A model generated the notes under the pieces. It searched no databases. It was given only the letters and a program-made list of their open reading frames with translations, and had not been told where the DNA came from. A DNA stretch of 32,196 nt from Anaerolineae bacterium (GTDB lineage: Bacteria > Chloroflexota > Anaerolineae > DTLA01): positions 1 to 32,196 of the forward strand of contig JARYMK010000012.1 in the NCBI GenBank assembly GCA_029907165.1, read 5' to 3'. Of the stretch, positions 744-30,766 are shown piece after piece. Position 1 is the stretch's first letter, and every line of letters starts with the position of its first letter. The position numbers and the translations under genes are program-made.

Positions 744-800
744 GTCAGAAGTCCCTCCGCGGGAACACCCTCTGCGAGAACGCGGTTGGCGGGAGTGCGC

Positions 801-3800
801 ATGCCAGGGCTTGGTCTGGTCAAGAAGACGAAAATCCTCATCCCACGGCGACGACCGGACTTTCTGCGCCGCCAGCGCCTCATAGACTTCCTGCATTCCC
901 GCATAGACCGGCGGCTGCTCCTGGTCTCCGCGCCCGCAGGCTACGGCAAGACGACCCTGCTGGTGGACTTCGCCAATGACACCGACCTCCCCGTGTGCTG
1001 GTACTCGCTGGACAGCGGCGCGCAGGACCCCCGCACGTTCCTGGAACATTTCATCGCCTGCATCCAGCGGCGTTTCCCCGAGTTCGGCTCGCGCACCGTG
1101 GAGACGCTGGACAGCCTGACCGACATGACCGAGACGGGGCTGAACCCCGTGCTGGTGAGCCTGGTCAACGAGATTCTGGACGAAATCCCGGAATACTTCG
1201 CCATTGTCCTGGACGACTTCCACCTGGTGGAGCAGAATACGGCCATCACGCGGTTCATCACGCGCTTCCTGGAGGACGCGCCCGAGAACTGTTGCCTCAT
1301 CGTGGCAGGGCGCACCGTGCCCGGTCGGCTCCCCATCGTAACCCTCGCCAGCAAGCAGCAGGTGGCAGGTCTGGGGAGCAACGACCTGCGGTTCACGCCC
1401 GACGAAATCCAGGCGCTGGTTCGCCAGGTGTACGACGTGGAACTGAGCGCCGAGGATGCCCGCGCCCTGGCCCAGGATACCGAAGGCTGGATCACCGGCA
1501 TCCTCCTGTCCACCCACAGCCTCTGGCAGGGCCTGCTGGAGGGCCTCATCCGCGGCAGAGGCACCATGACGGTGTACGACTACCTCGCCAACGAGGTGTT
1601 CAACCAGCAGGACTCGAAAGTCCAGGAGTTTCTGCTGGGCACATCTATCCTGGATGACATGACGCCCGAGTTGTGCGACGCCGTCCTGGAGACGAACAAC
1701 TCCTGGGCCATGTTGAACCTGCTGGAAGAGCGCAACCTGTTCCTGAATCGGCTGGGGGCAGAGGGGCAATGGTACCGGTACCATCGGCTGTTCCAGGGGT
1801 ACCTGGTGTCGCGGCTGCAGCGGGAGGAGCCGGGCCGATTCGCGGAACTGCATCGGCGGGCCGCGGCCTACTGGGAGGGCAAGAATGACCTGCCGCAAAC
1901 CATCTCGCACCTCCTGTCGGCGGGCGACTACGCAGCCGCAGCCGATCGTATGGAACGCGTCGCCAGCGCCATGATCGCCTCCGGGCGGCACATGGGGCTC
2001 ATGCAGTGGTACGAGACGCTGCCCGCCGATGTCTCGCGGCAGCATCCCTGGCTCCTGGTGCACTGCGCGAAGGCCTACGCGCAGTACGCCCAGCCCGACA
2101 TGGCGCTCTCCCTGTTGGATACGGCGGAGAATGCCTTTCGGCAGTCGGTGGACGCCAAAGGCACCGTGCAGGTCTCCGTGCAGCGGGGGACCATCTTCCG
2201 GCTCCAGGGGCGGTACAAAGAGGGCGCGGAGCAGTGCGCGCGCGCGGCGATGCTGGCCTCGCAGGTGGACGCGCCCACCGTGGCCGAACTGGAACGGTGC
2301 TGGGGCATCTGCCTGGGCCAGTTGGGGCGCTTGCAGGAAGGGGTGGAGCACCTGGAGCGGGCGCTGCAACTGCACCTCCTGTCGGGCAGCGAGTTCAACG
2401 CCGCCCTGGCGCGCACCGGGTTGGGAGCTTTCTTGGAACGCATGGGACACCTGGAGGAGGCACTCGCGCACTTTGAGAAAGCTGTACAAGCCTTCGGCCG
2501 TTTCCGAAATCCGAGCGAGCTGGCGAACGCGCTCAATTCCGTCGGCGTCATCTACTCCTACCGCGGCGAGTACGCCCGCGCGCGGGAGACCCTGCAACAC
2601 GCGCTGCAGGCGGCCCACGACGCCGGAAGCGGACGTTGGACAGCGTACATCCTGGCCGGCCTGGGCGACATAGAGCGCGACAGCGGCAACGCGGCCCAGG
2701 CGTTGGATCACTATGAGAAAGCGCTGGCCCTGCTGGACGAAACGCAGGAAGGCTTCCTCACTATGTACATCCATGCGGCCCAGGCCGAACTGCACGCCGC
2801 CCTGGGCGAGCCGCTGCGCGCGCAGGACCTGGCCCGCCAGGCGCGCGAACTGGCCGAGGCGCACCGCTCATCCTACGAGCAGGGCCTGGCAGGCATCGCC
2901 ACCGGCCTGGCCTGGCTTCCACGGGACGCGGCCCAGGCGGTGCAGGAACTGCAGAGGGCCGTGGACTTGCTAAAGGAAAATGGCGCCATGCGCGACATGA
3001 CGCGGGCGGTGTTCCTGCTGGCCGCGGCGCTGGAGCAGGCGGGCGCTCACGAGAAAGCCCTGACCCGCCTGGAAGAGGCCCTGACCCTGGCAAGCAAACT
3101 GGGCTACCGGATGGCCCTGCGCGCGCTGGCGGGCTGGGCCAAGCCCCTGCTGGCCCGCGCGGCCCAAAGCGGCATGGACGTGGCCGACATCCTGCAGGAG
3201 GCGGCGCCCCCCGCCCCCGCGATCGCCGCCGAGGCGCCTGCGCCCGCAGAGACCCACACCATCCGCCTGCTGGGGCTGGGCGGGAGCCGCGTGGAAATGG
3301 ACGGCGAGGCCGTGCTCACTAAGTGGAGCAAGGCGCGGGAGTTGATCTTCCTCCTGGCGACGCAGAACGAAGGGCGCGGCGTGCTCCGCGACGACATCTA
3401 TCAGGCGCTCTGGCCCGGCGACTCTGAGCACAAATCCTACGGCAATCTCCACACGCTCATCTATCGGGTGCGCCGGTTCCTGACCAACGACTGCATACAG
3501 TACGAGGACAACGTGTACCGCTTCGCGCCGGCGGGAGGCTACACCTGCGACGTAACCGAGTTCCAGACGCTCATCGCCAAGGCCCGGGCCGCCCAAGACC
3601 CCGCCGAGGCCCTGACCTGGTACGAAAAGGCCGTAGCACTCTACAGGGGCGATTTTCTGGAAGACATCGCTGCCGAGTGGACGATACACCTGCAGACGGC
3701 ATTGCGAGACATGTTCCTGATGGCGATTGCGCGAGTGGCCAACCACTACTGGCAGGTGGGCAACTGCGAGATGGCCGTTGCACTGGCGCATCGTTGGCTA

Positions 3801-3986
3801 GAGGAAGACCGCACCGACGAAGCGGCGCATCGCCTGCTGATGCGGTGCTTCGCGGCCCAGGGCAACATCGGCGCGGTGCGGCGCCAGTTCCAGTTGTGCG
3901 AACGCATCCTGACCCAGGAACTCCAGGTAGAGCCCGACGAGGAGACGCGCGAACTGTACGTTCGCCTGACCGCGCAAGGCGAGTGA
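801..3986 (+). CDS. MalT-like ATPase/TPR transcriptional regulator with C-terminal winged helix and BTAD domain
   Basis: About 1061 residues. A STAND-type NTPase opens the protein, with Walker A APAGYGKTT (about residues 44-52) and Walker B-like IVLDDFHLVE (about 135). A long helical region of TPR-like repeats covers about 390-790 (for example EALAHFEKAVQAFG and QALDHYEKALALLDE). An OmpR-type winged helix (about 818-905) and a bacterial transcriptional activator domain (about 915-1060) follow. In related regulators, ligand and ATP binding relieve autoinhibition and the winged helix binds direct repeats. I place the start at ATG 801, five bases after GGGAG, rather than at the TTG 15 bases upstream. 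Three phased repeats just downstream (4163-4191) are plausible targets, which would make the twin peptides its regulon. The inducing ligand is unknown. Confidence 0.88.
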   Translation: MPGLGLVKKTKILIPRRRPDFLRRQRLIDFLHSRIDRRLLLVSAPAGYGKTTLLVDFANDTDLPVCWYSLDSGAQDPRTFLEHFIACIQRRFPEFGSRTVETLDSLTDMTETGLNPVLVSLVNEILDEIPEYFAIVLDDFHLVEQNTAITRFITRFLEDAPENCCLIVAGRTVPGRLPIVTLASKQQVAGLGSNDLRFTPDEIQALVRQVYDVELSAEDARALAQDTEGWITGILLSTHSLWQGLLEGLIRGRGTMTVYDYLANEVFNQQDSKVQEFLLGTSILDDMTPELCDAVLETNNSWAMLNLLEERNLFLNRLGAEGQWYRYHRLFQGYLVSRLQREEPGRFAELHRRAAAYWEGKNDLPQTISHLLSAGDYAAAADRMERVASAMIASGRHMGLMQWYETLPADVSRQHPWLLVHCAKAYAQYAQPDMALSLLDTAENAFRQSVDAKGTVQVSVQRGTIFRLQGRYKEGAEQCARAAMLASQVDAPTVAELERCWGICLGQLGRLQEGVEHLERALQLHLLSGSEFNAALARTGLGAFLERMGHLEEALAHFEKAVQAFGRFRNPSELANALNSVGVIYSYRGEYARARETLQHALQAAHDAGSGRWTAYILAGLGDIERDSGNAAQALDHYEKALALLDETQEGFLTMYIHAAQAELHAALGEPLRAQDLARQARELAEAHRSSYEQGLAGIATGLAWLPRDAAQAVQELQRAVDLLKENGAMRDMTRAVFLLAAALEQAGAHEKALTRLEEALTLASKLGYRMALRALAGWAKPLLARAAQSGMDVADILQEAAPPAPAIAAEAPAPAETHTIRLLGLGGSRVEMDGEAVLTKWSKARELIFLLATQNEGRGVLRDDIYQALWPGDSEHKSYGNLHTLIYRVRRFLTNDCIQYEDNVYRFAPAGGYTCDVTEFQTLIAKARAAQDPAEALTWYEKAVALYRGDFLEDIAAEWTIHLQTALRDMFLMAIARVANHYWQVGNCEMAVALAHRWLEEDRTDEAAHRLLMRCFAAQGNIGAVRRQFQLCERILTQELQVEPDEETRELYVRLTAQGE

Positions 3987-4130
3987 ATTCCCCCACCCTG
4001 TAACGCCCTGCTCTTGATACACATTGAGGCCAATCCCGCACCTGTGCATATCGTAGTGGCGTAGCATGCTGCGCCCTGCAACCCTTCTTCGCGTTGCCGT
4101 GCGCATTCTTTCCCCCATTGAACCTTGTTT

Positions 4131-4152
4131 TACGTTTAGAAACCTTAACGTA
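4131..4152. promoter_or_regulatory. Inverted repeat TACGTT-N10-AACGTA, possible operator
   Basis: Perfect 6-bp arms (4131-4136 and 4147-4152) are separated by 10 bases, in an AT-richer patch 11 bp upstream of the phased heptamers. It has operator-like geometry for a dimeric regulator, but no T-tract follows, so it is not a simple terminator. Function is inferred from position only. Confidence 0.35.
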
Positions 4153-4162
4153 TCTGCCCCAG

Positions 4163-4206
4163 AAGTGAGCCCCATGTGAGTGCCAAGTGAGTGGCCCTGT
4201 GATACA
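4163..4206 (+). promoter_or_regulatory. Three 11-bp-phased heptamers plus extended -10: candidate BTAD/SARP-type binding site and promoter
   Basis: AAGTGAG (4163-4169), ATGTGAG (4174-4180) and AAGTGAG (4185-4191) are separated by exactly 4 bases, a period of 11 bp. Nine bases after the last repeat is GATACA (4201-4206), preceded by TG at 4198-4199, a weak extended -10; there is no recognisable -35. SARP-family activators are known to bind heptameric direct repeats at 11-bp period with the last repeat about 8 bp from the -10. The gene immediately upstream encodes a regulator with that winged helix-BTAD module. Transcription would start near 4213 and the first peptide begins at 4245. Confidence 0.55.
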
Positions 4207-4244
4207 GTGGGTGCAGAAACAAGAAAGCGCAGGAGGGAGTTGCC

Positions 4245-4370
4245 ATGAAGACCCTGTTCGCCAAACTCGCTGACCCCCGGTACGCCAAGGTTGCGTGGGT
4301 TGTGCTCGGACTCATCGGACTGATCATCGCGGGCGGCGCGCCCACCGGCCCCGGCGGCCCCGGCGCCTAG
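4245..4370 (+). CDS. Small 41-residue membrane-type peptide, copy A
   Basis: The peptide starts at ATG after a strong SD (AGGAGGGAG, 4231-4239). It has a basic amphipathic head (MKTLFAKLADPRYAK), a short hydrophobic stretch (VAWVVLGLIGLIIA, residues 16-29) and a glycine/proline tail (GGAPTGPGGPGA, residues 30-41). It is too short for most gene finders, but the neighbouring copy preserves frame, SD and 38 of 41 residues, so it is a real gene. I recognise no family. A double Gly at the end of the hydrophobic segment could be a processing site, but this is speculation. Possible roles are a small inner-membrane peptide, a secreted signal or a precursor peptide. Phased repeats upstream suggest control by the BTAD regulator. 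Confidence 0.75.
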   Translation: MKTLFAKLADPRYAKVAWVVLGLIGLIIAGGAPTGPGGPGA

Positions 4371-4408
4371 TCCGACGACACGCTGAACATTGACAGGAGG
4401 AAGTCGTC

Positions 4409-4534
4409 ATGAAGAACCTGTTCACCAAACTCGCCGACCCCCGCTACGCCAAGGTTGCGTGGCTCGTTCTCGGACTCATCGGGCTCATCATCGCGGGCGG
4501 CGCGCCCACCGGCCCCGGCGGCCCCGGCGCCTAG
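4409..4534 (+). CDS. Small 41-residue membrane-type peptide, copy B
   Basis: Second copy of the peptide, with its own SD (AGGAGG at 4396-4401) and ATG at 4409, 38 bases after the stop of copy A. It differs from copy A at residues 3 (Thr to Asn), 6 (Ala to Thr) and 19 (Val to Leu), all in the head and early hydrophobic part. The tail GGAPTGPGGPGA is identical. No separate promoter is visible between the copies, so they are probably co-transcribed. The mixture of synonymous and conservative changes indicates selection for the protein. Family and function are unknown; options are as for copy A. Confidence 0.75.
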   Translation: MKNLFTKLADPRYAKVAWLVLGLIGLIIAGGAPTGPGGPGA

Positions 4535-4836: not shown

Positions 4837-5067
4837 ATGACCGCCGAGATTCTGAATGTGCTCGTGGGCGCAGCGGTAACCGATGGCGAATTCTGCCAGG
4901 CCCTGCTGAACAACCCGGGCCGCACGGCGCGGCAATTCGGCCTCGCGCCCGAGGATGTGGAAGTCGTGTCCAAGATTCGGGCGCGCTCGCTGGCCGAATT
5001 CGCCGGGCAGTTGCTCCATTGGATGCCCGCCGAGCCCCGCGATTCCCTGTACGCCCGAATGCAATAG
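4837..5067 (+). CDS. Os1348/NHLP-clan-like small protein (RiPP-precursor-like)
   Basis: 76 residues, ATG preceded by a purine-rich SD (GAGGGAGAG). The sequence follows the pattern of the Os1348-type NHLP clan: an acidic helix with AAVTDGEFCQALL, a short NPGRTARQFGL turn, PEDVEVVSKI, then RSLAEFAGQLLHWM. In that clan the conserved part is leader-like and some members are precursors of ribosomally made, modified peptides. Here only about 14 residues (PAEPRDSLYARMQ) follow the leader-like part and they lack Cys, Ser/Thr clusters or Gly-rich core, so it may be a stand-alone member rather than a true precursor. No modifying enzyme lies on the same strand nearby; the closest radical SAM gene is at 7850-9019 on the other strand. 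Assignment is by remembered pattern. Confidence 0.6.
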   Translation: MTAEILNVLVGAAVTDGEFCQALLNNPGRTARQFGLAPEDVEVVSKIRARSLAEFAGQLLHWMPAEPRDSLYARMQ

Positions 5068-7849: not shown

Positions 7850-9019
7850 CTAACTCTGCGGGCCGGATGCGTCGGCGACATGGGGCTGGCCGGCTTCCAG
7901 CGGCGAAATCCGATGGCGAACCTTGGCGGCCTTCAGGGCCAGGTACTCCTTGAACACCTGCGGCAACACCAGCGGGTTGAACAGGATGTTGACCGTCAGG
8001 AAACACTCGTACGTGCAGAAGCACTTGGTCTCGCGGATGTCTCGGCGCATCTCGTCGGCGCGCTGGCTGAACCACACTTTGCCGAAGTCGTAGTCGTAGT
8101 CGCGCACGTTGCCGATGACGCGGTCGGGCCGCACCTCGCAGGGGAGCACCTGCCCGCGGCTGAACATGGCCCCGCCCAGCGTCCCGGCGTAGCACGGAAT
8201 TTGGTAGCGGTTCTCGCGCACCGTCTTGGCGATGATGCGCGGGCGGACGATGCGCTTGGCGTTGAGCACGTCGGAGAACGGCATCTTGTAGTAGCCCGAC
8301 AGGATGCGGGCCTTGTTGTCGCGCTCCAGCGCGCGGTGCAGTTCCTCGTAGCGCGTGATGTCAAAGTCTTTGGTCATGGGGTCTCGCGGCTCGCCCCGCG
8401 TCAGCAGGGTGAACACGGTGTTGACCCCCAGTTCCTTGCCCAGGTAGTCGTACAGCGGCAGCAGGCGATCCTGGTTCAACGCCGAGACGGTGATCTGCAC
8501 GCAGACGCTGAAGTTGGGATAGTGCTTCTCCAACCGCCGCAGTTCCTTGTACGTGCGCACCGCCTTGTCAAACAGGCCGGGCGTGTTGCGGATGCGGTCG
8601 TGATCCTCGCCGATGCCGTCAATGGACACGTCAATGTGCAGGTCAATGTTGGGGTTCTGCCGCAGCATGGTCTCGGTGGTCTCCACGATGCGGCCCGTGA
8701 GACTCCCATTGGTGGGGATGCCCACGTTGGCAGCGTGGTTGTTGACCTTGAAGATGTGGACGATTTCGGCCAGGTCTTTGCGGATGAACGGCTCGCCGCC
8801 CGTGGGCGTGAAGAACAGCATGTCGCCCATGGACGCGGAGACCTTCTCAATCTCGTCTATAGTCAGTTCGTCCTTGACCCACTCCGTCCGCTGGCCGAGG
8901 AGACAATGGCTGCAGTGGGCGTTGCAGTTCTCGGTAACGAAGAAAACGAAGTACAGCGGCATTGCCCCGCGCTTGTAGAACATGCGGGGGGTGTACTTCA
9001 GATAGTTCCAGATGCTCAT
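7850..9019 (-). CDS. Radical SAM enzyme with SPASM-like C-terminal cysteines
   Basis: 389 residues. The radical SAM cluster motif CNAHCSHC has Cys32, Cys36 and Cys39 (CX3CX2C), followed by TGGEP (73-77) and the barrel strand DVSIDG. The C-terminal part carries Cys276, Cys294, Cys333, Cys335 and Cys339, in positions suiting auxiliary iron-sulfur clusters of a SPASM or twitch type. Such enzymes modify peptides, sugars or lipids. Being first in an operon with glycosyltransferases suggests a sugar, lipid or protein-anchor modification in a surface-glycan pathway. A peptide substrate encoded nearby (4245-5067) is possible but on the other strand. The SD AAAGG lies about 8 bases before ATG. Confidence 0.85.
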   Translation of the reverse strand: MSIWNYLKYTPRMFYKRGAMPLYFVFFVTENCNAHCSHCLLGQRTEWVKDELTIDEIEKVSASMGDMLFFTPTGGEPFIRKDLAEIVHIFKVNNHAANVGIPTNGSLTGRIVETTETMLRQNPNIDLHIDVSIDGIGEDHDRIRNTPGLFDKAVRTYKELRRLEKHYPNFSVCVQITVSALNQDRLLPLYDYLGKELGVNTVFTLLTRGEPRDPMTKDFDITRYEELHRALERDNKARILSGYYKMPFSDVLNAKRIVRPRIIAKTVRENRYQIPCYAGTLGGAMFSRGQVLPCEVRPDRVIGNVRDYDYDFGKVWFSQRADEMRRDIRETKCFCTYECFLTVNILFNPLVLPQVFKEYLALKAAKVRHRISPLEAGQPHVADASGPQS

Positions 9020-19800: not shown

Positions 19801-20775
19801 CGTCGCCTCGGAAGCCGAACGGGCATTGGTGATGAGATCATCTAGGTTCTTTCCGATCACCTCGTCACGCATGTAGCCGAACAGACGCTCGGCTCCGGCG
19901 TTCCACTCCACGACGCGGTGCTGGGCGTCCAGGGTTACGATGGCATCGGGCGCGGCGGCCAGCACCGCCTCCAGATACAGCCGCCGCTCGGCGATCTGCC
20001 GCTCGGCCTCTTTGCGCGCGGTAACGTCGCGGGCGATGCCCAGCACCAGCGACTGGCCATGAATCTTGACCGGATAGGTGCGAATCTCGGCGACAACTTT
20101 GGTGCCATCCTTGCGCGTGAGGATGAATTCGTCAGGGCCGGTGGGTAGCCCCAGGACGTTGCGGGCCAGCAGCCCTGCTGCCTTCGGGATTTGCGATGGC
20201 GGCAGGAGTTTCAACTTCAGGAAACTGCCGCCGATGAGTTCCTCGCGCTTGTAGCCCACCATCTCCTCGGCGGCACGGTTGCCGTCCACGAAGACGCCCT
20301 TCATGTCGCTGAGGTAGTAGGCGTCGGGCGCGTATTCAAACAGGATGCGTAGCCTCTCCTCCGATGCTTTCAGCGCCTCCTCGGCCTGCTTGCGCTCGGA
20401 GATGTCCTCCACAACGCCCTCATAGTAGAGGATTCTACCATCGTCGCCGCGAATGGCGCGGGCCGATTCGCACACGAAGACGCGGCTTCCGTCGCGGCGC
20501 ACCCAGGAGGTCTCCCAGCCAACAATGAGGCCGTCGCGCTCCATGCGCTTCTTGAATTCGGTACGGGAGTATTCGTCACCGAAACTCTCCTTGTTGAGGT
20601 TGAGCCGCATCAGTTCCTCGGGCGAGTGGTAGCCCAACATGCGGGCGAGGGCAGGGTTGGCCAACAGGACACGTCCGTCGGGCGTCGTGCGGTACACGCC
20701 CACGCGCAGGCCGTCAAACAGCGCACGGTAGTCGGCGTTGCCGTGCGGGGATGGCATGGATTTGGAACCGCTCAT
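16888..20775 (-). CDS. Hybrid sensor histidine kinase: five PAS domains, HisKA, HATPase, two receivers and HPt
   Basis: 1295 residues. Five PAS/PAC units end with DISERK-, DVTARK- or DITERK-type linkers. The kinase core has HEIRTP with the phosphorylated His near residue 661, NLVGNAIKFT (N box, N778), ADTGIGIPP (G1, D810) and GGTGLGL (G2). Receiver 1 has phospho-Asp near 952 (ITDVRMPEMDG) and receiver 2 near 1094 (LMDVEMPVMDG). The HPt domain has TGHTLKG with His near 1236. The set is complete for a phosphorelay of BarA type, but there is no transmembrane helix, so it is a cytosolic sensor. Start ATG 20775 lies 8 bases after AGGAGG; the ATG at 20781 is only two bases from it. No cognate output protein is adjacent. 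Confidence 0.95.
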   Translation of the reverse strand: MSGSKSMPSPHGNADYRALFDGLRVGVYRTTPDGRVLLANPALARMLGYHSPEELMRLNLNKESFGDEYSRTEFKKRMERDGLIVGWETSWVRRDGSRVFVCESARAIRGDDGRILYYEGVVEDISERKQAEEALKASEERLRILFEYAPDAYYLSDMKGVFVDGNRAAEEMVGYKREELIGGSFLKLKLLPPSQIPKAAGLLARNVLGLPTGPDEFILTRKDGTKVVAEIRTYPVKIHGQSLVLGIARDVTARKEAERQIAERRLYLEAVLAAAPDAIVTLDAQHRVVEWNAGAERLFGYMRDEVIGKNLDDLITNARSASEATTLTAQVMSGEPVPPTETVRYRKDGSPVDVIVAAAPVLVEGHLIGAVAVYVDITERKRAEQALRESQERLQDFLDNATDLIQMVDMQGKFLYVNRAWRKALGYSEAEVPGLTLWNIIHPDSLDHCMRMFGDMISGRCNAVNVEALFLAKDGRVVPVEGSVSCRMENGKPVSTRGIFRDITERKRAEQALRESEARYRALFDNIPIGLYRTAPDGRILDANPALLEMLGYDSLEELRKVSASDVYVDPADRTRQQEILEREGVARAFEQRMRRKDGTVIWVLDNVRVIRDAEGRALHYEGSLEDITERKRVQEELHAAKEAAEAANRAKSEFLANISHEIRTPMNGIIGMTELALDTELTPEQREYLTMARNSAESLLRILNDILDFSKIEAGKLDMESIPFSLHDCLGDTMKALAVRAHNKGLELAMDIPVHVPDALVGDPGRLRQIVANLVGNAIKFTEQGEVVLFVECAEETDDEAVLQFAVADTGIGIPPDRQQAIFEAFTQADSSTTRQYGGTGLGLTISARLVEMMGGRIWVQSEVGVGSTFFFTARFGIQKGVSVWPTAELGDIRGMPVLAVDDNETNRRILHDMLASWGLRPSLAANGRQALAMMQDAARRGTSFPLVITDVRMPEMDGFMLIEQIRADTGLANTRVIILSSAGMVGDAARCRQLGVCAYLIKPVKQSELLDAILTAMAPKEGEAKAPALITRHTLREMRKRVRVLLVEDNPVNQRLATRLLEKRGHIVTVANNGQEALAALGRDSFDIVLMDVEMPVMDGFAATAAIREREKETGRHIPIVAMTAHAMKGDRERCLEAGMDDYIPKPLQVEQLMEIIERLAGGPKEEPQEAALQQVVGAEVAFRLDSALERVGGDEDLLREIAEMFLSESQTLLAQMRQAIAQSDAALLKRTGHTLKGLARNFGADDAAQAALDVERIGDEGRLDEAPAAADRLQAEVERLSQALREYLAAKA

Positions 20776-20885
20776 TTGCATAACCTCCTGCGGGCGGTGG
20801 TGTGCGTGGCCGCCCGTGTCGGGCACAATTCTACCCATGCGCGGGCCGACAGGCAAACGGCGCGGCGCACCATGCCCGCCTGTCC

Positions 20886-20899
20886 GCCCTTATCAACGC
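20886..20899 (+). promoter_or_regulatory. 14-bp repeated motif GCCCTTATCAACGC, copy 1 (before terminase)
   Basis: It lies 71 bases before the terminase start. An exact copy is at 22527-22540, 66 bases before the adaptor start. The similar distance suggests a shared promoter or operator of the cassette. TTATCA could be a weak -10, but no consistent -35 is present at both copies. Confidence 0.5.
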
Positions 20900-20956
20900 A
20901 GCGGGAGGCGTTTAGCCTTTGGCCATGATACGCCACCTGGCCGCTTGGAGATTGCC

Positions 20957-22471
20957 ATGCCCAACCGACAGCGCCTGCGCCTGTATGCCCTGTCGCGCAT
21001 CCTGCACCGCATAGACCTGTTCAGCCGCCACATTCTGGCGCGGCCTCTGCGAGGCTACCAACTGGCCCCCGCCCGCGCCATCGTGGACAGCGTCCTGCGC
21101 CGCCGCGGGCTGACATTCGCCGTGATGATGAGCCGCCAGGCGGGCAAGAACGAACTGTCGGCTCAGGTGGAGGCGTACCTGCTGGCGCTGCATTCGCGTG
21201 TCGGAGGGACGCTGGTGAAGGCTGCGCCAACCTTCGCGCCGCAGGCTGTTGTGAGCATGGAGCGCCTCGCGGCGCTGCTGGACAACCCGCTCACCCGCGG
21301 GCGCGTCGTCCGCGAGCACGGCAATATCCTCACGCTGGGCAAGGCGCGCGCCGTGTTCCTGAGCGCCCACCCCGAGGCCAACGTCGTGGGCCAGACGGCC
21401 AGCATCCTGCTGGAGTGCGACGAGGCGCAGGATGTGGACCCCGACAAGTGGGACAAGGACTTCGCCCCCATGGGCGCGTCGGCCAACGTTACCACGGTGT
21501 TCTACGGCACGGCGTGGACGCGCCACACCCTGCTGGCGCGGGTGGTCCACGAACTGCGCGCCCAGGAGGCCCGCGACGGGATTCGCCGCGTGTTCCTGGT
21601 GCCCGCTGACGTGGTGGCCGCCGAACTCCCCGCCTACGCCGCGCACTTGGAGAAGGAGGTAGCCCGCATGGGCCGTATGCACCCGCTCATCCGCACGCAG
21701 TACTTCCTGGAGGAACTGGACGCGGGCGCGGGCATGTTCCCACCCGAGCGCCGCACGCTGATGCAGGGCAGCCACCCGCCCCACCTGTCGCCCCAGCCCG
21801 ACTGCGCCTACGCCTTCCTGCTGGATGTCGGCGGGCCTGCCCAGGCGCCATTCACCTTGCCTCTGTTCCCCGATGAAGCCCTGGGGGAATGCGCTCCTGA
21901 CCCCGATCACGATGCGACGGCCCTGACCATCGTTGCCATAGACGCCGACGATGCCGTGAGCCTGCCCGTCTACCGCGTGGTGCACCGCAGGGCGTGGGTC
22001 GGCGTGGATCACCGCACGCTGTACGGGCAGATTCGGGCGCTGGCCGAGGCGTGGAACCCCGCGGCCATTGTGGCCGACGCCACGGGCGTGGGCGCGGGGC
22101 TGACCGACCTGCTGCGGTCGGCCCTGGGCGAGCGGGTGATCCCCGTGGTGTTCAGCGCCACCAAGAAGTCCGACATCGGCTGGCGGTTCATGGCGGCGTG
22201 CGACGCGGGGCGGGTTCGGGATCATGCGGCATGTGGCGGCGAAGGGCCCTTCGCTGCTACGGAGGCGCTCCGCCGCCAGTTCTGGGAGCAGGTGGAAGCG
22301 GCGCAGGTGGAGTACCTGCCCGGCCCAGGCCAGCGCATCCGCTGGGGCGTACCCGAATCGGCGGGGCACGACGATTTGCTCGTGAGCGCCGCCCTGTGCG
22401 TGGTGCTGGATGACGGCGGGTGGGGGTGCGGCGGGAGCGTGCTGGTGCGGAATCCCGTCCGCGAGGGGTAA
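20957..22471 (+). CDS. Phage terminase large subunit-like protein
   Basis: 504 residues from ATG 20957 (TTGGAG six bases upstream). The ATPase half has a terminase-type Walker A, SRQAGKNE (59-66), Walker B plus catalytic acid LLECDEAQD (151-159) and a coupling motif FYGTAWT. The RNase H-like nuclease half has LLDVGG (D290), VADATGVGAGL (D374) and AGHDDLL (D472/D473), so all expected acidic residues are present. Large terminases pump and cut DNA into procapsids, yet no portal or capsid gene follows. Both motors look intact, so it is either recently decayed phage or a domesticated system. Base composition matches the host, favouring long residence. A longer upstream frame overlaps the kinase promoter region and is not credible. 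Confidence 0.82.
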   Translation: MPNRQRLRLYALSRILHRIDLFSRHILARPLRGYQLAPARAIVDSVLRRRGLTFAVMMSRQAGKNELSAQVEAYLLALHSRVGGTLVKAAPTFAPQAVVSMERLAALLDNPLTRGRVVREHGNILTLGKARAVFLSAHPEANVVGQTASILLECDEAQDVDPDKWDKDFAPMGASANVTTVFYGTAWTRHTLLARVVHELRAQEARDGIRRVFLVPADVVAAELPAYAAHLEKEVARMGRMHPLIRTQYFLEELDAGAGMFPPERRTLMQGSHPPHLSPQPDCAYAFLLDVGGPAQAPFTLPLFPDEALGECAPDPDHDATALTIVAIDADDAVSLPVYRVVHRRAWVGVDHRTLYGQIRALAEAWNPAAIVADATGVGAGLTDLLRSALGERVIPVVFSATKKSDIGWRFMAACDAGRVRDHAACGGEGPFAATEALRRQFWEQVEAAQVEYLPGPGQRIRWGVPESAGHDDLLVSAALCVVLDDGGWGCGGSVLVRNPVREG

Positions 22472-22526
22472 CGCTCACCGCGGACGTGCGCAGCCGACCG
22501 ACACCGTTGGCGCGAGCCGTGCCCCT

Positions 22527-22540
22527 GCCCTTATCAACGC
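22527..22540 (+). promoter_or_regulatory. 14-bp repeated motif GCCCTTATCAACGC, copy 2 (before adaptor gene)
   Basis: An exact match to 20886-20899. TTGGCG at 22507-22512 lies 18 bases before TTATCA here, which would make a weak promoter, but copy 1 lacks a similar -35. Confidence 0.5.
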
Positions 22541-22592
22541 CCCGCGCACGTGGTACAACCGTGTGCGATGAACCGCCCGCAGGAGGTGTGCC

Positions 22593-23207
22593 ATGCCTTT
22601 CGCCAACCGTGCCGACTTTCTCGCAGCCATCGCCCGCGACCTGGGCGACCCCGACGGCAACACGTGGACTTCAGATGACCTGTCCCGCGCTCTGGATCAC
22701 GCGCTGGACGACCTGGCCGACGCCGTCGGCGCGCCTGCCTCGGTGGACGTGCCCGCGACCGGCTCCGACACCTACGACCTGTCCGGCTACCCCCACGTGC
22801 GCCAAATCGTGGCGGTGGAATGGCCCGCAGACGAGCAGCCGCCCGCGTACCTGCGCTTTCACATCTGGGGCGCGACGCTGCGCCTGCTGGACGCTGCGCC
22901 GCCCGCGGGCGAGACCCTGCGCCTGCACTACCGCCGGGCGTTCGCCGTGGACGACGAGAGTTCCGACGTACCCGCGGACCTGGCGGAACTGGCGGTGCTG
23001 GGCGCGCGTGCCTACGCTCTGCTCCAGCAGGCCGCCCGCACTGCCTGCACCGTCAACGTGGACGGCTGGGTCTCGCGGCGGTACGAACTGCAGAGCGAGC
23101 GGCTGCTGACCCGCTTCCGCGAGGCGCTGGCCGAACTGCGCCAGGCCCGCGAGAATCCCCCGTTCCATCCGGGTCAGACGCCCGCATGGTACGACGAGCG
23201 CGACTGA
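22593..23207 (+). CDS. Probable phage head-tail adaptor-like protein
   Basis: 204 residues with SD AGGAGG nine bases before ATG. The start RADFLAAIARDLGDPDGNTWTSDDLSRALDHALDDLADAV is a helical opening like gateway/head-completion proteins that dock under the portal, followed by a beta-rich middle (TYDLSGYPHVRQIVAVEW, RFHIWGATLRLL) and helices with ELAVLGARAYALLQQAAR, then a basic C terminus. The whole layout (an N-terminal helical pair and a mid-domain beta sandwich) is common to such small structural proteins, but sequence identity to a named family could not be checked. It lies 121 bp after the terminase and 19 bp before the tail-like gene. Confidence 0.5.
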   Translation: MPFANRADFLAAIARDLGDPDGNTWTSDDLSRALDHALDDLADAVGAPASVDVPATGSDTYDLSGYPHVRQIVAVEWPADEQPPAYLRFHIWGATLRLLDAAPPAGETLRLHYRRAFAVDDESSDVPADLAELAVLGARAYALLQQAARTACTVNVDGWVSRRYELQSERLLTRFREALAELRQARENPPFHPGQTPAWYDERD

Positions 23208-23226
23208 CGGTCGGCGGAGGTGGGCC

Positions 23227-25149
23227 ATGATTCCCATGTCTGACACCCTGCGGGTGGCGGTGAAGGCGTCGGGGCGTGTCCCCTTCGCCCGCCTGTCCAT
23301 CCGCGACCGCCAACTGCGCTGGTCGGCGGTTCACGGTGATGACGAGGAGAGCCAGCGCCAGACGGCCCTCGCCGTGGCGTCGGGCAGGGCATGGGTGAGG
23401 GCGCGGCTCGGTGAAGGCGGCGCGTTTCAATCGCAGCGCCTCGCCGACCCCGCCGATCCCGACGGTTGGGAACGGTGGGACACGCTGCTCACTTCGGGCG
23501 CGGCCCACGATGTCGCCATCGCTGCCGACGGGAACCTGGCCCGCGCCTTCTGCATCGTGGCCGAGAGCGGCGTGTGGCGCGTCAAGGTGTGGACGTCCGC
23601 GGACGGCGGCGCGACGTGGGCAGGGCCTGCCACCGCGTGCGAGTCGTCCTCGGCGATCACCAGCCTCGCTAGCCCTGCGCCCGACGCTGTGGCCTGGACG
23701 GCGGGCGGCGTCCTGCGCCTGTCGCTGTGGAACGGGGCGTCGTGGGGCGAGGCGGCTGCCTGGAGCGCAGGCGCGGTCATGGCCGATTACGGCATCGCAT
23801 GCGCGCGCCGCGATGGCGTGTACCGCTTCCTGCAGGCAGGGCTGCTCGCCGACGGCGCGTACCTGCGGGCCGTGTCGTGGGATGGGAACGGCTGGTCGGA
23901 GGGGCGCGTGGTCGTCCCAACCGGCCTCCCCGCCGACACGCTCATCCCGCGCTGGCCATCGCTGGCGTGGGTCGGCGACCGCTATCTGGCTGCCTACCTG
24001 GATACCTTCGCGGGTAGCCTGACCTACCAGACGCCGACCGTGCGCTTCTCGTGGGACTTTGAACACTGGTCGTACCCGTGCACCCTGAACCTGAACTCGG
24101 ACGGGCCGACGCGGGCCAACGTGGCCCTGGATACGGATCGTGCCGTAGCGGCTATGGAGCACTCGGCGCTGGCGGCTCCGCTGGGGCGCTCGCTGGAGGG
24201 GTTCGCGGGCATCCTGCGGGCCGAGCGGGTGGAGGCCGAGGGATACGGGGCGCTGCGGCTCCTGCTGCGCGGCGGCGAGGCGCTGGATTCGGCGCCGCTG
24301 CTACCCTACGCCGAAGCGGTGCTCGCCCTGGGCTACCGCACGGCAGCCGGTTACGAGAGCGTGGAGACCGCGCCCATGTACCTCGTGTCGGTGCATCGCG
24401 CCCGAGGCGAATCCCGGCCCGGGGCCGAGGTCATCGTCCACGCCCGCGACGGCTGGGGCCTGCTGGCCCAGTGGCAGGCGCTTACGACCGAGGCGTGGGC
24501 GGATGTCTCGCTCGGCTGGATGCTGGCGGAAGTCCTGATGCGGGCGGCGGGCCTGCGCCTGCTGACCGACGGCGCGCCCGCCTGGCAGGCCACGCTGGAC
24601 CGCTTCGCCATCCCGCGCGGCGCGCGGGGCGATGCCGTTGTCCGCCAACTGCTGCGCCACGCGGGGGCGCGTGCCAGGTGGGATGCCGACGGCTCGCTGT
24701 ACGCCTTCCTGCCGGCGGCCCAGCCGTGGGGCGTGGACTGGGCGTTTGATGCGGAGGTGCTCCGCGCCAGGCATGGCGTGGCGGCGGCGGGGGTTACGCT
24801 GGCGCGGGTGGCGGGGCAGTACCCGGCCCTGGGCCAGGCGCAGGACGTGCGCGCGGCCCAGCAGCAAGGCCGAACCCTGGACGCGGTGATGGACGACGGG
24901 TATCTGACCACGTCCGCCCAGTGCGCCGAGGCTGCGGCGGCGCTGGTGGCGCGGGGAACCGTCCGCGCGCTGCGGGGAACGCTCACCACCGCCGTTGTGC
25001 CGGGCCTCCAGGCGCTGGACCGGGTTACGGTGGATGATCCCGCCCTGGGGCTTGTGGCGGCCGAGCGGCGGGTCGTGTCGGTTCGCACGGTATGCGACGC
25101 CCTGCGCGGAGTCTGGCAGCAGACGGTGGAGATGGAAGGCCTCGCGTAG
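23227..25149 (+). CDS. Large phage tail-like protein with propeller-type N-terminal half
   Basis: 640 residues from ATG 23227, six bases after GGAGG. Residues 1-330 contain repeated blades of the type WRVKVWTSADGGATW, LRLSLWNGASWGEA and WDGNGWSEGRV, with regular Trp/Asp/Gly spacing as in sialidase or BNR-like beta-propellers. The C-terminal half (about 340-640) has the alternating strand pattern of tail-hub or late-control-D-type phage proteins (VIVHARDGWGLLAQW, ALDRVTVDDPALGLV), which form baseplate structures; this part is assigned by general resemblance only. If correct, the propeller could bind host surface glycans. It ends the cassette; no lysis or tail-fibre gene follows. Confidence 0.45.
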   Translation: MIPMSDTLRVAVKASGRVPFARLSIRDRQLRWSAVHGDDEESQRQTALAVASGRAWVRARLGEGGAFQSQRLADPADPDGWERWDTLLTSGAAHDVAIAADGNLARAFCIVAESGVWRVKVWTSADGGATWAGPATACESSSAITSLASPAPDAVAWTAGGVLRLSLWNGASWGEAAAWSAGAVMADYGIACARRDGVYRFLQAGLLADGAYLRAVSWDGNGWSEGRVVVPTGLPADTLIPRWPSLAWVGDRYLAAYLDTFAGSLTYQTPTVRFSWDFEHWSYPCTLNLNSDGPTRANVALDTDRAVAAMEHSALAAPLGRSLEGFAGILRAERVEAEGYGALRLLLRGGEALDSAPLLPYAEAVLALGYRTAAGYESVETAPMYLVSVHRARGESRPGAEVIVHARDGWGLLAQWQALTTEAWADVSLGWMLAEVLMRAAGLRLLTDGAPAWQATLDRFAIPRGARGDAVVRQLLRHAGARARWDADGSLYAFLPAAQPWGVDWAFDAEVLRARHGVAAAGVTLARVAGQYPALGQAQDVRAAQQQGRTLDAVMDDGYLTTSAQCAEAAAALVARGTVRALRGTLTTAVVPGLQALDRVTVDDPALGLVAAERRVVSVRTVCDALRGVWQQTVEMEGLA

Positions 25150-28150: not shown

Positions 28151-28489
28151 CTCCCCTCGCTCCTGTGAACCCTCTGCAACCACATAAGTATAGGGGAAAA
28201 CGGCCAAAGGGCAAACAGCGTCGGGTTCACCCCAGAAAACGCAGAGCGTCGCACGGGGCTGAAGCCGCCGCGACCAGGGAGTGCTACCCCCTTCGCCCGC
28301 CGAGCGGGTTCGGATGAGGGCGGATAGAAGTGCGTCGCATCTAGCACCATGGCAGCCCTACCCGCGATCGGGACACCTGCTCCTCACGCAACATTCACTA
28401 ATTCTTAATACACGATTCACCTTTTTCGCGGCCCCTCGGCCCTACAATGGAAGGTGGAAACACCAATTTGCACTCATTGGGTTGCTCTT
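28151..28489. other. 339-nt divergent region between uvrB and the secreted peptidase
   Basis: No credible gene. It holds the uvrB promoter (28187-28214), two copies of GCGTCGCA, an AT-richer patch with direct repeats ATTCAC at 28393-28398 and 28415-28420 (22 bp apart, two helical turns), and a -10-like TACAAT (28443-28448) for the peptidase. TTCACC lies 21 bp upstream, too far for a normal -35, so activator-assisted transcription is possible. Confidence 0.45.
28187..28214 (-). promoter_or_regulatory. Promoter of uvrB
   Basis: On the minus strand TTGCCC (28214-28209), 16-nt spacer, TATACT (28192-28187). It gives a leader of about 30 nt before ATG 28150. Confidence 0.6.
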
Positions 28490-30766
28490 ATGCGTACGCG
28501 TCCGTTCTCGCGGTTCCTTTGGCTGGCAACGATACCTATCCTGCTCGGGCTGGCGGCACTCGCCCTGACCGCGACCGCTGCGCGGGCCGAGGGACCTGTC
28601 GCTCCATCGCTTGCCACGCCCCAGCCCGAAACCTGGCAGGCAGGCCGAACCTCGGTGTCGGACCTGAGCCTACGAGAGCAGGCGGCGCTCCTCGGCGTTC
28701 CCGCCCAGGTGATGGAGCAGGAGCGCATCCTGAGCCTGCTCAACGCGGGACGGCGGCCCGCCGACTATCACTATCCGCCCAGCCTTGACTGGCGCCAATA
28801 CGGCGGCCAGGACTACACCACGCCCATCCGCAACCAGAGTTCGTGCGGGGCGTGCGTGGCCTTTGGCGTGGTCGGGGCCGTAGAAAGCCGCCTTGAGGTG
28901 GCCGCGAGCAATCCCAATCTGAACCCGAACCTGTCGGAGGGGCAACTGTTCTACTGCGGGTGCGGGGCGTGTTGCGAAATCGGGTGGTCGCCTGCCGCCG
29001 CACTGAACTTCGCGCGGGACGTGGGCATCGTGGATGAGACCTGCTCACCCTACAGCCCGGTCAACCAAGCGTGCAACCTGTGCCCCGATTGGCAATCTCG
29101 GGTTACGCGCATCGCGGGGTGGGCCGGCGTGAGCGGCGCGGAGAACATCAAGGAAATCCTGGCCGATAGTGGCCCGGTGGTCGCCACGATGAACGTGTAC
29201 CAGGACTTCTATTCCTACGTGGGCGGGGTGTACCGCCGCACGTGGGGCAGCCTGCTGGGCGGGCACGCGGTGGTGCTGGTCGGGTACGATGACGCCGGTG
29301 GCTACTGGTTCGCCAAGAACTCCTGGGGCACTTACTGGGGCGAGAGCGGCTGGTTCCGCATCGCCTACGGTGAGTGCGAGATAGACGACTACGCCTACGT
29401 GCCGGTGATCCTCCCGTCGGCAACGGCCACGCCGGCGCCGACGTTCACGCCTGGCCCCAGCGCCACGGCCACGCCCATGCGCACGCCCACGGCGACGTGG
29501 ACGCCCACACCGACCCACACGCCGACGGCGACGCGCACGCCAACGAGCACGCCAACTCCCACGCGCACGGCCACAGCGACGCGCACGCCAAGCGCCACGC
29601 CGACCGCTACACATACGCCCGCGCCCTTGCCGCCGCAGCACGCCGTCCGCTTCTCGGCCCGGTACGTGTCGGGCCAGTACCTGACGTACAGCGTGTACTA
29701 CGTGCTGGACGGTGGTCTTCCCAGGTTCTTGGGCACGGTCAGTTTCGCCCGCGAGTGGGAGTTCTCCGCCAACTTCAATTCCATCTGGGTCTTCATGACC
29801 ACGTCGGCGGGGACGCTCTACGCGCAGGACCTGTATGTGGACGGGGAGCGGGTCGCGTGTGGCACGCTGAGCAGCGAAGGTCTTAGGTGGCCCGGTGGGC
29901 AGTGTGAGCAGCCGCCCGCGCCTACCGCCACGCCGACGCGGACTCCGACGCTCACCTGGACGCCGACGGCCACGCCCACGCCCACGGCCACCTGGACGCC
30001 AACTGCAACCCGCACGCCAGCGCCGACCGCTACGCAGACCGGCACGCCGGCTCCGGTTCCAGGCCAGCACACCGTGCGGTTCACGGCGCGGTACGTGTCG
30101 GGGTACGCGCTGACCTACGCCGTGTACTACGCGCTGGATGGAGGGCCGACGCAGTTCCTGGGGCCGGTCGCATCGGCAGGCGACTGGACGTTCACCGCCG
30201 CATTCAACGCCATTCGGGTGTACATCAGCGTGCCCGCCGGCACGATGTACGAACAGCGCTTGTACGTGGACGGTGTTGCCGTGGACTGCGGTACCGCGGG
30301 CAGCACGGGCATGATCTGGCCGGGCGGCCGATGCGACGCACCGGAGCCACCGACAGCCACCCCGACCCGCACCGCCACGCCCACGCGCACGCCCACAGCG
30401 ACGTGGACGCCCACGCCAACCCGCACGCCCACGGCGACCCGCACGCCGACGTGGACGCCCACCGCCACGCGCACGCCTGCGCCCGTGCCGCCGCTCCATA
30501 CGGTGCGGTTCACGGCGCGGTACGTGTCGGGCTACTACGTCATGCGGAGCATCTTCTACGAGTTGGACGGCGGCGCTCCCCAATTTCTGGGCGCGGTTAC
30601 GCAGTACGCAGATTACTACCTGTCCGCGAGTTTCAACCAGATTCGCGTGTATGCCTCTAGTCCACTGGACTCGCTGTATGGGGAACTGTACGTGGATGGG
30701 GTGCGGGTAGCGTGCGGGATGATCGGGGCCGAGGGGTTGCGCTGGCCTGGCGGTTCGTGCCCGTAG
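28490..30766 (+). CDS. Secreted papain-like (C1 family) cysteine peptidase with three tandem unknown domains
   Basis: 758 residues. A signal peptide (FLWLATIPILLGLAALALTATAARA, cleaved near 33) and a short pro-like region precede a papain fold at about 93-308. The catalytic Cys is 122 in SSCGACVAF with oxyanion Gln116; His259 lies in GGHAVVLVGYD and Asn277 in AKNSWGTYWGE. Three domains of about 90 residues follow, at about 382-472, 525-615 and 668-757, each HxVRF(S/T)ARYVSG...LDGG...FN.I.V...LYVDG..V.CG...WPGG.C, joined by Thr-Pro linkers of about 50-70 residues. A conserved Cys pair per domain suggests a disulfide. It looks surface- or secretion-bound, with the repeats perhaps binding carbohydrate. 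Start ATG 28490 is preferred over GTG 28454, which would put residues before the signal peptide; no good SD precedes it. Confidence 0.88.
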   Translation: MRTRPFSRFLWLATIPILLGLAALALTATAARAEGPVAPSLATPQPETWQAGRTSVSDLSLREQAALLGVPAQVMEQERILSLLNAGRRPADYHYPPSLDWRQYGGQDYTTPIRNQSSCGACVAFGVVGAVESRLEVAASNPNLNPNLSEGQLFYCGCGACCEIGWSPAAALNFARDVGIVDETCSPYSPVNQACNLCPDWQSRVTRIAGWAGVSGAENIKEILADSGPVVATMNVYQDFYSYVGGVYRRTWGSLLGGHAVVLVGYDDAGGYWFAKNSWGTYWGESGWFRIAYGECEIDDYAYVPVILPSATATPAPTFTPGPSATATPMRTPTATWTPTPTHTPTATRTPTSTPTPTRTATATRTPSATPTATHTPAPLPPQHAVRFSARYVSGQYLTYSVYYVLDGGLPRFLGTVSFAREWEFSANFNSIWVFMTTSAGTLYAQDLYVDGERVACGTLSSEGLRWPGGQCEQPPAPTATPTRTPTLTWTPTATPTPTATWTPTATRTPAPTATQTGTPAPVPGQHTVRFTARYVSGYALTYAVYYALDGGPTQFLGPVASAGDWTFTAAFNAIRVYISVPAGTMYEQRLYVDGVAVDCGTAGSTGMIWPGGRCDAPEPPTATPTRTATPTRTPTATWTPTPTRTPTATRTPTWTPTATRTPAPVPPLHTVRFTARYVSGYYVMRSIFYELDGGAPQFLGAVTQYADYYLSASFNQIRVYASSPLDSLYGELYVDGVRVACGMIGAEGLRWPGGSCP

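Follow-up and report, generated by a model that had tools for sequence, protein, structure and literature searches.

Tandem GAP-motif peptide genes beside a SARP-type regulator suggest an unrecognized peptide export or signaling system in Chloroflexota

We found that two tandem ORFs for 41-residue membrane peptides in an Anaerolineae genome are genuine genes and belong to a large family that is apparently new to the literature, whose conserved genomic setting suggests an unrecognized peptide export or signaling system in Chloroflexota. Across the class, one cassette brings together a SARP-LAL regulator, a propeptide that resembles a signal peptide, and DUF5317, a membrane protein with an uncharacterized function. 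In our best reading, to which we give a little less than an even chance, the peptide is a propeptide under SARP control, and its tail is exported and then set free, probably by DUF5317, to act as a signal.

Twin peptide genes and their family

The twin genes lie in a stretch of 32,196 nucleotides that was analyzed as a whole (the window), with the following features:

4231..4236, forward strand: Shine-Dalgarno sequence of peptide 1, AGGAGG, 8 nt 5′ of the ATG
4245..4370, forward strand: peptide copy 1 (GAP peptide), 41 aa, MKTLFAKLADPRYAKVAWVVLGLIGLIIAGGAPTGPGGPGA, with homologues across the class
4335..4367, forward strand: GAP-tail codons of copy 1, GAPTGPGGPGA, the proposed exported product, with the conserved GAP motif
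4395..4400, forward strand: Shine-Dalgarno sequence of peptide 2, AGGAGG, 8 nt 5′ of the ATG
4409..4534, forward strand: peptide copy 2 (GAP peptide), 41 aa, MKNLFTKLADPRYAKVAWLVLGLIGLIIAGGAPTGPGGPGA
4499..4531, forward strand: GAP-tail codons of copy 2, with the same DNA as in copy 1

Re-reading of the sequence confirmed what the preliminary description had reported, namely twin tandem ORFs, each with its own Shine-Dalgarno sequence, that share 38 of 41 residues (changes T3N, A6T, and V19L) and an identical Gly/Pro tail, GGAPTGPGGPGA. The identity of the tail extends to the DNA level, as does that of the 13 bases from the stop codon onward. The starts are 164 bp apart, and a direct repeat of 151 nt, 92% identical, spans both ORFs. 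All differences had been placed in the first 25 codons, which is right for the amino acids, the last difference being at residue 19, but not for the DNA, where differences reach codon 26 (CTG/CTC). The tandem pair is also present in both sister species of the genus (2/2 other genomes).

A search with the 41-mer against 60 related genomes yielded distant small ORFs of the same shape, and the alignment of those ORFs, run over 297 genomes of the class, identified 45/297 as strongly peptide positive at E < 1e-5, with the best homologue E values across the class down to 1e-20. Read out using the start codon and Shine-Dalgarno sequence, the homologous genes in the class genomes make up a family of about 60 peptides of 31-55 residues. 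No family had been recognized for the 41-mer at the outset; this is borne out by Pfam and NCBIfam, neither of which gave a match, but the peptide does belong to a clear, unnamed family, and homologues with a conserved frame, which we looked for, are present across the class.

The family members share a basic head and a single hydrophobic membrane helix, whose outer end mostly carries [AGS]-x-GAP; the tail that follows is short and either Gly/Pro-rich or Cys-containing. GAP is nearly invariant, with SAP or GGP as rare substitutes, whereas G, A, S, V, or I can precede the conserved G. The earlier suggestion that the Gly-Gly marks processing therefore has to be dropped, since its first Gly varies across the family and the motif that is kept is GAP.

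Two familiar precursor types were tried and rejected. A double-glycine leader peptide would need a Gly-Gly cleavage site, which is not conserved, GAP being kept instead; a lipoprotein precursor would need the lipobox cysteine at +1, where all members have Gly or Ala, and no family member has a cysteine at the GAP motif.

Cassettes carry one to five peptide copies in tandem, with five at locus L125. At another locus, L088, three tandem peptides share GAPIPW[ST]GSGGG and, unlike in other arrays, have C-terminal extensions that differ between the copies.

Codon usage between tandem copies

We compared the codons of 17 neighboring pairs from 13 tandem arrays and counted 109 synonymous versus 49 nonsynonymous differences, where 27% synonymous is the neutral expectation (binomial p 4e-28). 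From this excess of synonymous changes, we consider the genes of the family to be translated and under selection. The repeats in the window are short, GC-rich, and closely spaced, as they would be if the ORFs had arisen by chance and the repeat were a regulatory DNA element; the synonymous bias, together with the frame, Shine-Dalgarno sequence, and motif conserved in about 60 homologues, refutes that explanation as far as sequence can, and we regard its probability as negligible.

The first eight tail codons, counted from the GAP glycine, had 25 synonymous and 2 nonsynonymous differences versus 72:34 in the heads (Fisher p 0.008), with this eight-codon definition picked after the whole-tail result was seen. 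When whole tails were counted, the contrast between tail and head was gone (p 0.72), because the three copies at L088 carry long, variable tail extensions. The two window copies do not differ in the tail even at synonymous sites, and gene conversion or recent duplication explains this identity equally well.

Conserved cassette, regulator, and predicted operator

Nearly all homologues lie in a cassette composed of a MalT-like/TPR/SARP regulator, the peptide copies, DUF5317, and a small protein of the Os1348/NHLP clan. Wherever a locus extends far enough 5′, a regulator orthologue nearly always precedes the peptide. DUF5317 and the Os1348-like protein follow downstream in most loci, in either order, and after them there is often a gene for a histidine kinase, a response regulator, or an HD-GYP protein. 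When loci were gathered via DUF5317 and not via the peptide, nearly all of the regulator-bearing ones had the peptide too. The window cassette consists of the regulator, the two peptides, and the Os1348-like protein (4837-5067), DUF5317 being absent from it:

786..3986, forward strand: SARP-LAL type regulator, 1066 aa, with a MalT-like NTPase, TPR repeats, a weak C-terminal winged helix, and a BTAD
4163..4191, forward strand: predicted SARP operator, AAGTGAG-N4-ATGTGAG-N4-AAGTGAG, three 7-mers with an 11-bp period
4203..4208, forward strand: predicted -10 box, TACAGT, with an extended TGA just 5′ (TGA-TACAGT, 4200-4208), placed relative to the repeats as in homologues
4837..5067, forward strand: Os1348-family NHLP-clan small protein, 76 aa (NF038399, 46.1 bits; cut-off 40)

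A radical SAM protein with a weak SPASM match is encoded at 7850-9019 on the reverse strand, beside one gene resembling those of glycosyltransferases and another for a large membrane protein. Its gene is near the peptides also in one sister genome (G001) and was not seen in the stretch from the other (G002), so it is probably outside the cassette.

The regulator ends 258 bp before the start of peptide 1 (3986 to 4245). Its N-terminal MalT-like NTPase has the Walker A motif APAGYGKTT, and residues 14-490 match the NCBIfam MalT-like model at 8.7e-78, below the cut-off. Several TPR repeats (Pfam TPR_12, 9.7e-26) and a BTAD (PF03704, 4.7e-22, 79.3 bits versus a cut-off of 22.1) were also found, along with a weak OmpR-type winged helix (PF00486) whose 16.6 bits are below the cut-off of 26.2. 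The earlier pairing of the peptide with a TPR-bearing regulator thus proved well founded: the two stay together throughout the class, the regulator belongs to the SARPs, and directly 5′ of the peptide there is a predicted operator of SARP type. This operator, the DUF5317 partner, and the Os1348-like protein had escaped the preliminary description.

Published SARP sites consist of 7-mer direct repeats in 11-bp units 5′ of the promoter (PMC10972967), and the predicted site at 4163-4191, with the spacers CCCC between 7-mers 1 and 2 and TGCC between 2 and 3, fits this classical layout. It is the single occurrence in the 3.2-Mb draft genome within 3 mismatches, so the peptides look like a dedicated target. 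Among 52 upstream regions, repeats of at least 8/9 identity ahead of a -10 box had a period of 11 in 16/52 and of 12 in 7/52, against at most 1/52 for each of the other periods from 7 to 23 (shuffle mean, 0.07). More than half of the loci did not pass this strict operator test. Among 15 additional loci of more distant relationship, a repeat of period 11 was present in 1 and one of period 12 in 4, so the operator signal is lineage-dependent.

The regulator resembles SARP-LAL and other large SARP regulators (PimR, AfsR, and PolY) in its BTAD, TPR, and large NTPase region, and the predicted site resembles their operators in its 7-mer direct repeats with an 11-bp period 5′ of the target. It differs from them in that the SARP domain is C-terminal and the target is a membrane propeptide with no visible biosynthetic cluster. 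We found no paper linking BTAD regulators, small peptides, and Chloroflexota.

In the sister genome G002 (L023, 4215-5042, reverse strand), an extra module stands between the regulator and the peptides. In it, the same operator precedes the peptide's first 14 codons, which continue as a 275-aa Cys-rich protein that is apparently secreted and has no Pfam match; a small membrane protein comes after it.

The operator and the linkage also bear on whether the peptide could be the hydrophobic toxin of a type I toxin-antitoxin pair, retained as tandem copies. Its size, hydrophobicity, and tandem arrangement would suit such a toxin, but the region around the repeat gave no Rfam match to a structured RNA, the tail motif and the linkage to the regulator and DUF5317 are kept class-wide, and the predicted operator is of a dedicated activator type, which together make a toxin very improbable.

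The Os1348-like protein

An Os1348-like relative is present 3′ of the peptide in 48/52 loci of the peptide search and also in most regulator-bearing loci of the DUF5317 scan. The window protein scores above the NF038399 cut-off, as Os1348-family NHLP-clan proteins do, and differs from that family in being part of a regulator/peptide cassette without neighboring modification enzymes. A RiPP precursor would be expected to have modification enzymes beside it, but none was recurrent in the homologous cassettes.

A link between Os1348 and antibiotic activity is known from Pseudomonas sp. Os17 (PMC7726476), and SARPs are frequent controllers of secondary metabolism (PMC10972967). The peptide might accordingly be an end product, either a secreted or membrane-active antimicrobial or a RiPP-like compound, for which the Os1348/NHLP-clan protein would be a helper or another precursor, and both the tandem amplification and the Cys-rich protein that follows the same operator and peptide start in G002 would agree with this. 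However, a maturase, peptidase, or exporter gene is not recurrent in the cassette, the Gly/Pro tails of 8-15 residues are unlike cores, the Os1348-like proteins have little sequence past the leader-like domain, and the genes that follow encode a sensor, response regulator, or HD-GYP protein instead. We therefore judge an end product to be unlikely.

DUF5317 and its resemblance to signal peptidase II

DUF5317 (PF17248) is present in 79/297 genomes of the class, comprising 45/45 strongly peptide-positive genomes versus 34/252 others; the p value of 5e-32 ignores kinship, and such co-occurrence values are inflated because the genomes are related. In 7/7 tested genomes whose cassette lacks DUF5317, one copy was found elsewhere. 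For the window genome (G000), the sole copy is on contig 28, whereas the window is contig 33.

On the same contig (L106, reverse strand, around 4269-4349), a second small peptide, MKWRVLYALMIVASIVAAAGATAKWH, is encoded 5′ of a 444-aa membrane protein and DUF5317. Similar "GA..KW" peptides occur 5′ of DUF5317 in Bipolaricaulota, in a MAG labeled Thermotoga, in other MAGs, and in Chloroflexota.

One-helix peptides that regulate sensors are common, and the intact peptide may likewise be a small membrane regulator of DUF5317, the sensor kinase, or the SARP regulator, with nothing released. The GAP motif would be exposed at the surface of the membrane, within reach of a binding partner, many cassettes continue with signaling genes, and a complex would account for the co-occurrence with DUF5317 as well as a protease would. 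Against this, the first eight tail codons differ less between tandem copies than the heads and helices do, and as many as five copies in one array (L125) are easier to understand for a product whose dose matters than for a stoichiometric subunit. We consider such a regulator rather unlikely, yet it is the strongest competitor of a released tail.

Across 40 DUF5317 sequences, the invariant residues are Q, N, NGGxMP, D, and SxGD. Hydrophobic stretches and charges point to five helices, with the invariant residues near the outer face. The end of the protein, D...FSxGDxxxxxG, resembles the LspA dyad, and an hhalign comparison of DUF5317 with LspA, run without guidance, gave a probability of 41% (P 2.7e-4) with both aspartates aligned. 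With a larger alignment, hhalign gave 21%; the score of 28.8 marginally exceeded the highest among 300 local shuffles (28.7), and reversed LspA scored 15.2. In a profile search of 13,254 ORFs with LspA, DUF5317 made up 14 of the top 20 matches, and in the reverse search of 914 ORFs, LspA made up 9 of the top 12. The resemblance to signal peptidase II, which is below any usual homology threshold, is thus weak but reciprocal and centers on two invariant aspartates, and we consider it suggestive. A search of solved structures for relatives of DUF5317 returned chance-level matches only, and the literature searched had no paper on this domain.

DUF5317 shares with LspA (Peptidase_A8) two invariant aspartates about 18 residues apart and an F[NS]xxD that opens the last helix, probably on the outer face. 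On the substrate side, the peptide motif L-A-[AGS]-G resembles a lipobox, but without the lipobox cysteine. The two proteins differ in helix number and in a loop of about 45 residues before the first aspartate. DUF5317 may be the processing enzyme of the peptides.

A second, divergent LspA is encoded besides the standard one in 3/3 genomes of the genus (G000:C274:8446-8853, G001:C51:396-806, and G002:C95:5296-5706).

Proposed mechanism and comparison with RRNPP systems

If the tail is indeed released as a signal, the regulator would bind at 4163-4191 and activate the peptide genes, as the operator evidence suggests, and the peptide would insert head-in/tail-out, much as a signal peptide does. 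DUF5317, whose two invariant aspartates match those of signal peptidase II in position, would then cut near [AGS]-x-G-A-P and release the tail (GAPTGPGGPGA or a fragment). The released tail would act as an extracellular signal, read by the TPR regulator or by a downstream sensor, and tandem copies would provide a higher dose of one product.

Peptide signaling through TPR regulators is best known from Firmicutes. The RRNPP pairs (Rap/Rgg/NprR/PlcR/PrgX with Phr, SHP, or PapR) likewise have a small propeptide with a basic head, a hydrophobic middle, and a short C-terminal tail. In these systems, a propeptide of 10-100 aa with a basic N terminus and hydrophobic center is encoded -60 to 400 bp from a receptor of 250-500 aa with an N-terminal HTH and C-terminal TPR (PMC10075063). 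The 41-aa peptides agree with this in size and shape, their distance of 258 bp from the regulator is within the range, and the regulator carries TPR repeats (TPR_12); however, its 1066 aa and domain order of NTPase-TPR-BTAD do not fit the receptor. The DUF5317 partner and the Chloroflexota hosts are further differences. Peptide sensing, which the preliminary description had raised as speculation, may apply here, as the layout agrees with several published features of such pairs. The cassette most likely works like the RRNPP propeptide systems, but it is not one of them.

A more far-reaching proposal is that of a new class of peptide signaling, in which a SARP-LAL regulator drives tandem propeptides and DUF5317 is a signal-peptidase-II-like aspartyl membrane protease that acts at cysteine-free sites and frees the GAP tails, with the "GA..KW" peptides near DUF5317 in other phyla as variants. 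We regard this as possible but somewhat doubtful. If true, DUF5317 would gain a function, LspA-like proteases would extend beyond lipoproteins, a possible signal could be named for SARP-LAL regulators, and a communication system would be at hand in bacteria whose genetics is poorly developed. What is predicted is narrowly defined, namely a single operator, a single tail, and two aspartates.

Other features of the window

Three phage-like ORFs were recognized by eye at 20738-25149 on the forward strand, flanked by genes for a hybrid histidine kinase and an AmrS-like radical SAM protein; they encode a large-terminase-like ATPase with a QAGKNE motif, followed by proteins of 204 aa and 640 aa. At 28454-30766, we noted, also by eye, a papain-like cysteine protease with long Thr/Pro linkers between three copies of a C-terminal domain (VRFxARYVSG...).
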